NCBI RefSeq assembly: GCF_031326345.1
Contig: NZ_CP133671.1
Coordinates: 6,855,501 to 6,919,500 of the forward strand
Source of the DNA: Aureispira sp. CCB-E
GTDB lineage: Bacteria > Bacteroidota > Bacteroidia > Chitinophagales > Saprospiraceae
Length of the DNA stretch: 64,000 nt
Direction of reading: 5' to 3'
The notes beneath the pieces were generated by a model. The model had not been told where the DNA came from. It did no database searches and saw only the letters and a list, made by a program, of their open reading frames with translations. Positions 46,350 through 49,107 of this stretch are shown one piece after another (position 1 is the first letter of the stretch; every line of letters starts with the position of its first letter). Position numbers and translations under genes: made by a program.

Positions 46350-46940
46350 TCATTCATCTTCGTGAACCAACAAACCATAAAAAAAGAAATTCGTCAATTC
46401 CATTGTCAATTCTTGTGGACTATCATAATGCACCAACAAAGCATCGTCCAACACCATTTCTCTCATTTTTAGCAATTGATATCGCATAAATTCACGCTTA
46501 ATCCCAGGACGTACGTAGCCTTCTTTTTGAGCTTGTTCATAATCATCCAAAACCAAATCCATCATAACTTCTCCCTTAGCATAGATATATTCCAACAAAC
46601 CTAAGTCATTATTTTTATAAATATCTGTAATAAACTCTTGGCTGATATTTTTACTATTCCTTGCTTTGGCCAACAACGTCTCCTTTACTTTTTGAGCAAA
46701 TGGGATGTTTTGTTCCATAATGGCTTTGTATTCTTGTATTCCTTCTTCAAACACTAAATCTAAAATTGTTTTTGCCAAGTCTATTTTGTTGTCAAAAAAC
46801 TTATAAAAGGTCATTTTACTTGTTTTTGCTTCCTTACAAATTTCTTGTATAGATACTCGCTTGACACCATGTTTCCAGAATAACTCTTTCGCTGTTTTCA
46901 AAATAGCTTGACACTTCTTATTCTCTAAATCTCTACTCAT
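46350..46940 (-). CDS. TetR-family transcriptional regulator
   Basis: This 196-residue DNA-binding repressor has an N-terminal helix-turn-helix at about residues 10-55 (ILKTAKELFWKHGVKRVSIQEICKEAKTSKMTFYKFFDNKIDLA). The long C-terminal helical ligand domain is not similar to named subfamilies. It is the first gene of the operon and likely controls it. The upstream region carries repeated AAACGTAAAC sites overlapping the promoter, consistent with autoregulation. The inducer is unknown. A lipid or membrane-active compound would fit the operon. Confidence 0.92.
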   Translation of the reverse strand: MSRDLENKKCQAILKTAKELFWKHGVKRVSIQEICKEAKTSKMTFYKFFDNKIDLAKTILDLVFEEGIQEYKAIMEQNIPFAQKVKETLLAKARNSKNISQEFITDIYKNNDLGLLEYIYAKGEVMMDLVLDDYEQAQKEGYVRPGIKREFMRYQLLKMREMVLDDALLVHYDSPQELTMELTNFFFYGLLVHEDE

Positions 46941-46969
46941 ATACTTTTTCTAATCTTACATTCTCAAAC

Positions 46970-47024
46970 TTACGTTTTCAAATAAAAGTTCCTAAAAACG
47001 TAAACTAATACTACAAACGTAAAC
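46970..47024. promoter_or_regulatory. Candidate TetR operators: inverted and direct AAACGTAAAC repeats
   Basis: TTACGTTTT (46970-46978) and AAAACGTAA (46995-47003) form a perfect nine-base inverted repeat. AAACGTAAAC is repeated directly at 46996-47005 and 47015-47024, with centres 19 bases apart. The last copy overlaps the -7 element, a good position for repression by the adjacent TetR. Confidence 0.55.
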
Positions 47025-47044
47025 TTTTTTTATATGAATTCCAA
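47014..47044 (-). promoter_or_regulatory. Promoter of the TetR/Lol-like operon
   Basis: On the minus strand there is TTG (47042-47044), 20 bases, then TACGTTTG (47014-47021). This is an ideal Bacteroidota -33/-7 pair about 75 bases before the TetR start codon. Confidence 0.6.
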
Positions 47045-47404
47045 TTTTTTTAATTAATAGTCATCAATTTTTCTGTTACTACATGGTTTCTATAGACTTG
47101 TGCATTAGTATTAATTTTATTATTAGCTTTTTAGAGCGAAGGCAAAAAAATACACACATTCTTAATAATCAATAATTTATCACTAAAAAAATCACGCCAC
47201 ATAGTTAGTAGTTAGCTCCGCTGCTACTTCGTGGTTTTAGCGAACTATTGATAGTAGCAGCATAGCTAAAATGAAGAATAAGGAAAGGTGTTTAGACTAA
47301 GTTACTATTGTGGATGATGTATTGAATGGAATTTGGGGAAACACTTAAGGCAAGGATAAAACACCTAACGAACTCGGTTAAGTTCTGGTCATGTATAAAA
47401 ATAA

Positions 47405-47440
47405 AAAAAGAGACACTTGGGGAGTAAGCATCTCTATTCT
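47405..47440 (-). terminator. Terminator-like hairpin (left)
   Basis: AGAGA...TCTCT with inner ACT/AGT, and on the minus strand a U7 run directly after the stem. It resembles the hairpin at 47712-47752 in the shared words AGAGATGC and TCTCTTTTTTT. Confidence 0.45.
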
Positions 47441-47711
47441 AACCTTTCTAATAATTAAACTTTTATTCGGCAATAGATGATTAGAAAGTTGGGAAATTGG
47501 GACAATTCTATTTTTATCTCAAGTAGTTGGTTATGGTCTTATGAAACAAATTCCAATCTCCAACTTCTAATCTTCATCATCTATTATAGTTACTTTTCCA
47601 CACTAGTAAAAGGAATCAATCCGTCTTTAGGTCTTAAATTGCAGGATGATGCTCCTATACATCGTCGCATGGTTATCTTTAATAAGTTGACTAAAATGCT
47701 GACTGCTGAAA
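47441..47711 (-). ncRNA. Candidate structured RNA, second unit
   Basis: It contains a long imperfect hairpin: AATAGATGA 47472-47480 with 47577-47585 (nine bases), TTAGAA 47481-47486 with 47565-47570, GTTGG 47488-47492 with 47560-47564, ATTGG 47496-47500 with 47553-47557. It ends at the left terminator-like hairpin if read on the minus strand. No promoter of its own was found, so it may arise by read-through from the first unit, and the strand is not certain. Confidence 0.35.
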
Positions 47712-47752
47712 AAAAGAGATAACCTTCGTATTCCTACAAAGGCATCTCTTCA
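47712..47752 (-). terminator. Intrinsic terminator (right)
   Basis: AAGAGAT/ATCTCTT with inner CCTT/AAGG. On the minus strand a U7 run follows. On the plus strand there is no U-run. Confidence 0.6.
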
Positions 47753-48060
47753 AATTTAAGACAGACAGATAAGACAACTTGCATTGTTTCTTTTTCAAAT
47801 AGGTTTGGGTTTAGTTCCCTACTCTTTAGGCGATTAGGCTCTCAGATTTTCTCAGAAACCCTAATTGCCCTTTGAGTAAAAACTAATCAAGCTTCATGGA
47901 TTTTGGGTTTTTAGGTATTGTGTTCTGGGTACTTTAATTGTATTACAATATCTTAGCTATGAATATCAATTAGGGTCAAACTCTACTTGAATCTTTGTGT
48001 TTATTTAAGTGAGTTTTTTTTTAGAACTTAATTATTATTAGGAAGCATTTCCTCCTAACG
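47712..48060 (-). ncRNA. Candidate structured RNA of about 350 bases
   Basis: Bounded by a good minus-strand promoter (48067-48098) and a minus-strand terminator (47712-47752), with no ORF of coding character on that strand. Within it TACTC/GAGTA (47820-47824/47874-47878) encloses GGCGATTAGG/CCTAATTGCC (47829-47838/47860-47869, one non-canonical pair), and GGAA/TTCC forms a small 5' hairpin near 48040-48052. None of the tmRNA, RNase P, SRP or 6S signature words were recognised. The single odd pair would be G-U on the plus strand, which is a point against the minus-strand reading. Confidence 0.45.
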
Positions 48061-48066
48061 ACAGGT

Positions 48067-48098
48067 CAAATATAAAGCAGCTTTTTGGTAGTTCCAAA
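48067..48098 (-). promoter_or_regulatory. Minus-strand promoter for the candidate RNA
   Basis: Read on the minus strand: TTTG (48095-48098), 20 bases, TATATTTG (48067-48074). Both elements and the spacing match the phylum's housekeeping promoter, with transcription expected to begin near 48060. Confidence 0.55.
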
Positions 48099-48117
48099 TT
48101 TTTTTGTGATTTTTTTG

Positions 48118-48260
48118 CTTATTTTTATCAAAAATATAATCAAATTAATTCAAAATAAACTACAAAAAACAACCAAACACCACACAAAAACCTAAAAACC
48201 AACACAATAACCAAATAAACACCATTTTACATTTACAAATAAAAAATCTATCTTTTTTAT
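48118..48260. other. 143-base tract without a single G on the plus strand
   Basis: Reading base by base from 48118 to 48260 there is no G, and there is a C/A-rich core (ACAACCAAACACCACAC and similar). It lies directly upstream of the fumarylacetoacetase-family gene and of the candidate RNA promoter on the other strand. Confidence 0.8.
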
Positions 48261-48371
48261 GCTAACATCAATTTTATGTTGATGTTAAGTTCTTTTAGTT
48301 CATATTTTTTAGTTTATTGTAAAAATGAAATTATCTACTTTAATCAAAAACAAAGTTAGCATACATACGTT

Positions 48372-48986
48372 ATGAAAATTATTTGTGTTGGTCGCAACTA
48401 TGCTGCCCATGCCGCAGAACTCAACAATCCTGTTCCTCAAACACCACTTTTATTTCTAAAACCAGATACTGCTCAGCTACTAGATGGCTATCCACTGTTT
48501 TATCCTGACTTTACCAAAGACTTGCATTATGAAGTAGAGGTCCTACTCAAAATATGTAAAAACGGTAAGCATATTGCACCAGAATTTGCGTCTACTTATT
48601 ACAAGGAAGTATCGGTAGGCATTGACTTTACTGCACGTGACATACAAGATGCCTGCAAAAAAAAGGGACACCCTTGGGAAATTGCAAAAGCATGGAACCA
48701 TTCAGCAGCAATTGGTCGTTTTATTCCCATCGAAGAAGCTCGAAACCAACATGGAGAGATTGAGTTTTCTCTCACTAAAAATGGGGAAACAGTACAACAA
48801 GGCATTAGCAGTGATATGCTGACAGGCTTTGATGATTTGATTGCTTATATTTCAAAATATTTTATGCTACTGCGAGGTGATGTTATCTTTACAGGAACTC
48901 CTAAAGGTGTCGGTCCAGTGCAAATTGGAGATAAATTAGAGGGCTTTATTGGAAAACAATCGCTGCTCAACTGTTCTATTAAATAA
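48372..48986 (+). CDS. Fumarylacetoacetate hydrolase-family protein (FAHD1-like)
   Basis: This 204-residue cytosolic metal-dependent hydrolase/decarboxylase has KIICVGRNYAAHAAEL at the start, LFLKPDTA, the metal ligands E54 and E56 in HYEVEVLL, GIDFTARDIQD, and the closing VIFTGTPKGVGP. It is short, consisting only of the catalytic FAH domain, and closest in appearance to acylpyruvase/oxaloacetate decarboxylase FAHD1-like proteins. The gene is monocistronic with a strong terminator downstream. The role in aromatic or oxaloacetate metabolism is inferred from the family. Confidence 0.9.
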   Translation: MKIICVGRNYAAHAAELNNPVPQTPLLFLKPDTAQLLDGYPLFYPDFTKDLHYEVEVLLKICKNGKHIAPEFASTYYKEVSVGIDFTARDIQDACKKKGHPWEIAKAWNHSAAIGRFIPIEEARNQHGEIEFSLTKNGETVQQGISSDMLTGFDDLIAYISKYFMLLRGDVIFTGTPKGVGPVQIGDKLEGFIGKQSLLNCSIK

Positions 48987-49046: not shown

Positions 49047-49107
49047 AAAAAAGGATTTGGACTCTTAAAAGCAGCAAAAATTGCCAAACAGTCCAAATCC
49101 TTTTTTT
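49047..49107. terminator. Bidirectional terminator between convergent genes
   Basis: The 16-base arms 49047-49062 and 49091-49106 (AAAAAAGGATTTGGAC/GTCCAAATCCTTTTTT) flank a loop of 28 bases. A- and T-runs allow use on both strands. Confidence 0.85.

Follow-up and report, generated by a model that had tools for sequence, protein, structure and literature searches.

Organization of the locus

The window, i.e. the whole stretch of 64,000 nucleotides that was analysed, belongs to a 7.39 Mb genome of the genus Aureispira (G000). One of its gene-free stretches carries on the minus strand a predicted small RNA gene, named here RNA A, followed by a second structured element, B (Table 1). The TetR-family gene is encoded in the same strand as RNA A and begins ~460 bases past the terminator of B.

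Table 1. Features of the RNA A locus. Positions are those of the window; features of RNA A and element B are predictions.
Feature	Positions	Strand	Remarks
Gene-free stretch	46941-48371		flanked by a TetR-family gene and a FAH-family gene
TetR-family gene (PF00440)	46350-46940	minus	
FAH-family gene (PF01557)	48372-48986	plus	divergent from RNA A and retained beside it
Promoter of RNA A, TTTG-N20-TATATTTG	48067-48098	minus	-33/-7 type of Bacteroidota
RNA A, predicted sRNA transcript (~352 nt)	47709-48060	minus	from promoter to terminator; folding; homologues
5' hairpin P1 (GUUAGGA..UCCUAAU)	48037-48059	minus	absent from G001
Main hairpin P2	47812-47885	minus	pair changes on both sides; replaced by unrelated stems in G004 and G007
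Small hairpin P3, ACAAUGCAAGUUGU	47774-47787	minus	four alignable species; seed bases 1-4 form its 3' arm
Putative seed (CU-rich strand), UUGUCUUAUCUGUCUGUCUU	47758-47777	minus	
Seed core, 14 nt, UUGUCUYAUYUGUC	47764-47777	minus	also present in g66 and G430
Rho-independent terminator of RNA A with U7 tract	47709-47750	minus	stem pairs counted over 7 sequences
Element B, second structured element	47403-47700	minus	four species only; no recognizable promoter
Long hairpin of B	47474-47583	minus	
Conserved strand preceding the terminator of B, AAAAGUUUAAUUAUUAGAAAGGUUAGAA	47437-47464	minus	
Rho-independent terminator of B	47403-47435	minus	

The putative promoter of RNA A matches exactly the element that a preliminary description, made from the window sequence, had placed there. 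It belongs to the TTTG/TAnnTTTG promoters described in Bacteroides (PMC2483708). TTTG-N20-TATATTTG occurs 6 times in the window versus 3.3 expected, a number that is not significant alone. The complete element is present upstream of RNA A in G000, G040, G006, G001, G003 and G007, and with a spacing of one base less (TTTG-N19-TATATTTG) in G430. G004, G279 and G002 have a TAnnTTTG box with no exact TTTG at the required spacing, their -33 part being imperfect.

The terminator hairpin of the preliminary description was found at 47743-47722 (minus strand) together with its U7 tract. Its end had been set at 47712; since the tract occupies 47709-47715, RNA A is predicted to end near 47709. The second terminator-like hairpin claimed further downstream was also found (47435-47409, minus strand). 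Four terminator-like sites lie between 45500 and 50000 versus 2.4 in shuffled sequences, which alone is not significant either. The earlier reading that the stretch holds no credible protein gene stood: the ORF at 47477-47722 has no counterpart of at least 60 aa in the corresponding loci L002, L003 and L004. No ATG-initiated ORF of at least 20 aa was found in seven of the ten RNA A sequences, and those present in G003, G004 and G007 look unrelated to one another. RNA A has, as sRNA genes do, a predicted promoter of its own in the conserved -33/-7 element, a Rho-independent terminator whose pairing is kept and no conserved protein-coding frame. Its length across species varies from ~130 to 456 nt.

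Two repeats lie nearby. Positions 47205-47255 hold a dispersed repeat of ~45 bp (consensus TAGTAGTTAGCTACGCTGCTACTTCGTGGTTTCAACGAACTATTG) that is matched at no fewer than 42 other places in the own genome (40 of the 367 first-look candidates were scored) and, over shorter lengths, in G006, G001 and G003. Eight aligned copies differ in their flanks, and the window copy is accompanied by an inverted arm with which it forms a long hairpin (z -4.2); the repeat is REP- or MITE-like. An inverted repeat at 49047-49106 (AAAAAAGGATTTGGACT..AGTCCAAATCCTTTTTT), between the FAH gene and the cytochrome c peroxidase gene that converges on it, resembles a terminator acting in both directions.

Conservation within Aureispira

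The FAH-family gene was found in all nine genomes of the genus and RNA A in eight of them: seven times divergently upstream of FAH and, in G002, elsewhere. Searches with the spacer gave 78% identity over ~930 bases in G006 and strong matches in G001 and G003, each beside FAH. Alignment of these homologous spacers, which the preliminary description had called for, revealed conservation in all three: the promoter is nearly invariant, the stretch of seed and terminator is invariant, and insertions and deletions run through the remainder. In G004 and G007 the strand CUUAUCUGUCUGUCUU directly precedes a terminator upstream of FAH and the other spacer sequence is hardly recognizable; an unrelated hairpin stands upstream of the motif and the -7 box is ~240-270 bases before it.

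G002 has a different gene close upstream of FAH. Its RNA copy, located at another site by a 16-mer search, measures ~168 nt in all and comprises the TATATTTG box, a shared UUCAUAGCUAA block, the motif with one change at its end and the terminator. The gene divergent from this copy presumably codes for pyruvate dehydrogenase E2. No copy of RNA A was detectable in G005 (99% complete) by pattern search or with the R1 model described below.

One RNA A copy was accepted per genome. An exact scan of genome contigs for CTTATCTGTCTGTCTTAAAT, in a sample that possibly leaves aside the own genome and very near ones, gave three stretches, all from Aureispira. When up to 3 mismatches were allowed in 396 genomes sampled from the order, G001, G004, G006 and G007 not being among them, 8 genomes had a match; the matches in G000, G040 and G003 are the RNA and the other five look by eye like coding sequence. 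Phage and plasmid collections gave no match.

The genes around FAH vary within the genus (L002, L017, L028-L031) and RNA A mostly stays with FAH. We take the variable genes to be TetR, restriction-modification-like, cystathionine beta-synthase-like and M3 peptidase-like. In G006, as in the window, TetR follows RNA A on the strand of the RNA. Same-strand genes also follow it in G001, G003, G004 and G002 and are unrelated between species: presumably restriction-modification-like in G001 and cystathionine beta-synthase-like in G004, with small ORFs coming next in G003 and G002. Outside the genus, g66 and G430 have an opposite-strand gene in this place (tRNA-Met and ORF 824-1153 of L100, respectively).

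Occurrence beyond the genus

A model of the RNA 3' end (R1), built from seven Aureispira sequences, was run with stricter filters on 398 genomes of the family. It gave matches with E up to 0.1 in 19 genomes. Those accepted are in three genomes of genus g66 and in eight of the nine Aureispira genomes, the latter including the seven used to build R1. In g66 (29 bits) UUGUCUCAUUUGUCUGUCU and a terminator are positioned divergently upstream of FAH. The matches in G243, G426, G334, G446, G533, G191, G364 and G614 were rejected on reading their sequence, several of them having scores above g66 (34.8 bits in G446, 33.4 in G614, 31.5 in G191, and others). Extra weak matches in G000 (32.5 bits) and G040 (34.9 bits) correspond to an ordinary terminator behind a gene. 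Since rejected matches score higher than g66 (up to 34.9 bits), acceptance of the latter rests on synteny with FAH, which played no part in the R1 search.

Inspection of FAH upstream regions identified UUGUCUUAUCUGUC followed by a terminator in G430 (genus g195), whose FAH is 70% identical. For a systematic scan of such regions, FAH was found in 132 of 140 genomes; three Aureispira were set aside and 107 of the other 129 were taken (27 loci plus 80 fetched stretches, of which three measured less than 700 bases). Two could not be oriented and 105 were scanned. The 14-mer core was present without mismatch in two of these loci outside Aureispira, those of G430 and G279; two further loci had it with 2 mismatches, the same number as on the opposite strand. 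Note that the g66 match to the core pattern is partly circular because its Y positions derive from these genomes; compared to the Aureispira letters, G430 has no mismatch and g66 has two, both pyrimidine swaps. Among 148 relatives of G430 the 14-mer TTGTCTYATYTGTC occurs in 20 genomes at 23 places, about equal to the reversed control. A terminator hairpin, judged by eye, follows it only in G430 and G279, and no genome was added. The features shared outside Aureispira are the motif, the terminator, the promoter box and synteny only.

Folding and covariation

The minus strand of 47712-48062 folds with z -4.4, none of 100 shuffles being as good, and the plus strand of the same segment with z -2.7. 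An alignment of four species (the window's species, G006, G001 and G003) gave an alifold energy of -58.2 kcal/mol for RNA A on the minus strand versus -18.6 (sd 3.3) in column shuffles (z -12.2), compared to z -4.6 on the plus strand. This agrees with the minus-strand assignment, which had been provisional. The column shuffle does not preserve dinucleotides and the z-scores of both RNA A and B run high; the contrast between strands is therefore more telling than the values. Folding of single sequences was better for the RNA strand than for the opposite one in G000, G040, G006, G001, G003, G004, G007 and G002. G430 and G279 fold weakly (z -1.9 and -1.8 versus -2.6 and -2.5 on their opposite strands).

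In the four-row alignment 97.5% of cells pair and four pairs have changes on both sides, values attained by 8 to 16 of 500 shuffles for a structure that came from the same alignment. The terminator stem, counted over seven rows, is 89.5% paired, has three pairs with both-side changes (attained by 34 of 500 shuffles) and a covariation score of 0.267 versus 0.195 (0 of 500 shuffles); its further pair types are not above shuffles (439 of 500 attain them). These covariation figures come from few related sequences and from shuffle controls that ignore relatedness. The seed is unpaired in the four-species consensus except for its first four bases, engaged in P3; three further seed bases are paired in the full-length consensus. 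The strong internal stems stressed in the preliminary description are borne out in that the RNA A fold surpasses shuffles, but the constant part of the molecule is the short strand before the terminator and not the big stems.

Element B

The element downstream of RNA A is structured and ends at a terminator, but lacks a recognizable promoter and was recognized in four species only. In these its alifold z-score is -10.6 on the minus strand and -5.4 on the plus strand; the minus strand of 47405-47700 alone reaches only z -1.9. A block within B at 47644-47676 (AUAACCAUGCGACGAUGUAUAGGAGCAUCAUCC, minus strand) is nearly invariant in the four species and partly pairs with the following stretch in the consensus fold, with no conserved frame seen. 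Probably B is either a separate RNA built along the same lines, with a hairpin, a conserved strand and a terminator, or the 3' portion of a transcript that reads through from A.

Known RNA families and candidate targets

The Rfam covariance-model check proposed in the preliminary description gave nothing at gathering score in the window, where sub-threshold matches were recorded with E up to 10. The best of these at the locus was DUF3800-I, on B (26.5 bits, cut-off 44.2). In the three relatives, at E up to 10, GibS (RF04182) matched B of G006 (35.1 bits, cut-off 115). Both matches are taken as chance or general terminator likeness. GibS was not among the matches to RNA A up to E 10. Likewise the matches listed up to E 10 for the locus and for the three relatives included no 6S-type family, and no covariance-model match to RNase P RNA or tmRNA was found at the locus. 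The genes for the last two lie elsewhere in the genome; the preliminary description had seen no signature words of either at the locus. In the own genome 6S RNA (RF00013) was not found and RF01705 gave no match, the search control for the latter giving none either. The open-access papers searched yielded no report of an sRNA in Aureispira and none naming 6S RNA together with Saprospira.

The complement of 16 seed bases was matched with up to 2 mismatches at 37 places in nine genomes. Eight are the RNA itself, and the 29 others show no excess over the reversed control (41). Pairing of the seed with FAH start regions ranks in the best tenth of shuffles in three of nine species (G006, G007 and G430), at different places, and is ordinary in the other six; FAH mRNA is not convincing as a target.

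Interpretation

The comparison supports a structured RNA read from the minus strand with its own predicted promoter and terminator, as the preliminary description had proposed: RNA A is present in eight of nine genus genomes, its 3' end is syntenic in two further genera, G002 has a copy at a different site, folding is strand-specific and Rfam has no match. On these grounds we regard as supported at sequence level the unit itself, its strand, the way it is conserved and, from G002, that it does not depend on FAH. Beyond that we infer that it is transcribed, that the seed is accessible inside cells and that it pairs with mRNAs. We consider it reasonably probable (roughly 60%) that RNA A is an autonomous, non-coding, trans-acting sRNA gene with the CU-rich strand as its seed. 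RNA A would be transcribed leftward from a housekeeping-type Bacteroidota promoter and end at its own terminator. Its variable 5' part (P1, P2) may be a scaffold or stabiliser open to lengthening, replacement or loss. The working part would be the CU-rich stretch UUGUCUUAUCUGUC(UGUCUU) that directly precedes the terminator; as a seed it may pair with mRNAs, one or several, in their start regions, perhaps assisted by an RNA-binding protein.

A single frozen strand next to the terminator, with the rest free to vary, fits an sRNA seed or a protein-binding strand. By analogy, pairing with mRNAs would be our first choice, with protein binding as the second. In the latter case the CU-rich strand would be the site of an RNA-binding protein that RNA A titrates or guides. 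This is possible, if doubtful: the motif repeats UGUC, complementary targets are not above control, the two pyrimidine swaps of g66 would be easily tolerated by a protein, and RbpB of Bacteroides reportedly prefers single-stranded parts of sRNAs for binding (PMC11697453). No protein is linked to the locus, however, and a run of at least 16 bases that are the same throughout Aureispira is long for a protein site on single-stranded RNA. It is unlikely that A and B form one RNA of ~650 nt in which the A terminator acts as a partial stop or processing point. The missing promoter of B and its position directly behind A in its four species would agree with it, but nothing resembling B was seen after A in G004, G007, G002, G430 or g66, and A has a strong terminator with preserved stem pairing.

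Adjacency to FAH in seven of nine genus genomes, g66 and G430 could suggest a cis element controlling this divergent gene, and the same-strand gene found downstream in the window, G006, G001, G003, G004 and G002 an untranslated leader with attenuator (for TetR in the window). RNA A points away from FAH without overlapping it, and seed pairing with FAH stands out in so few species (three of nine). Two terminators separate A from TetR. The downstream genes differ between species, being on the opposite strand in g66 and G430, and the G002 copy stands apart from FAH, which is still present; together these points argue against a leader or cis element, which we regard as very unlikely. Conserved DNA that yields no functional transcript, or an mRNA for a small peptide, is hardly credible: a mini-frame ATGAAGCTTGAT with its stop is conserved in four species, but there is no conserved longer ORF, folding is strand-specific, the promoter and terminator are kept while the remainder turns over, and G002 has its copy at another site. 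Least credible is that RNA A is a divergent form of a housekeeping RNA like 6S; the failure to find RF00013 in the own genome would leave room for this. Against it stand the lack of 6S-type matches up to E 10, the location of RNase P RNA and tmRNA elsewhere, a length varying between ~130 and 456 nt and a consensus fold that is not one long closed rod.

Returning to the trans-acting sRNA, its retention next to one and the same enzyme gene in three related genera and the lack of any Rfam match make RNA A probably a real and so far unstudied regulator. Slightly more likely than not, it represents an sRNA family, not described before, that Aureispira shares with two genera related to it; a strand of 14-20 nt is here essentially frozen while length, stems and genomic address change. 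This would imply a strongly conserved partner, either one core mRNA or an RNA-binding protein. The frozen strand provides a handle on whether RNA regulation in this group uses pairing or an RNA-binding protein, and RNA A is an example of an sRNA traceable across genera by synteny when little beyond 14 bases stays recognizable.

Comparison with known systems

6S RNA (RF00013) is likewise intergenic and of comparable length in some species, but RNA A has no covariance-model match to it, no long closed rod and a strongly variable length. The DonS-type sRNAs of Bacteroides are, like RNA A, encoded divergently beside protein genes (PMC11697453). Their neighbour is there a polysaccharide utilization locus, whereas that of RNA A codes for a FAH-family enzyme on which there is no sign of action. 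The FopS/GibS sRNAs of Bacteroides thetaiotaomicron, also a member of Bacteroidota, are treated in the same paper (PMC11697453). GibS has no Rfam match to RNA A, and FopS counts 14 paralogues in one genome, in contrast to the one accepted copy of RNA A per genome. FopS sRNAs carry a conserved single-stranded seed before the terminator, and RNA A is alike in build to them, a likeness drawn from their description that does not imply membership.
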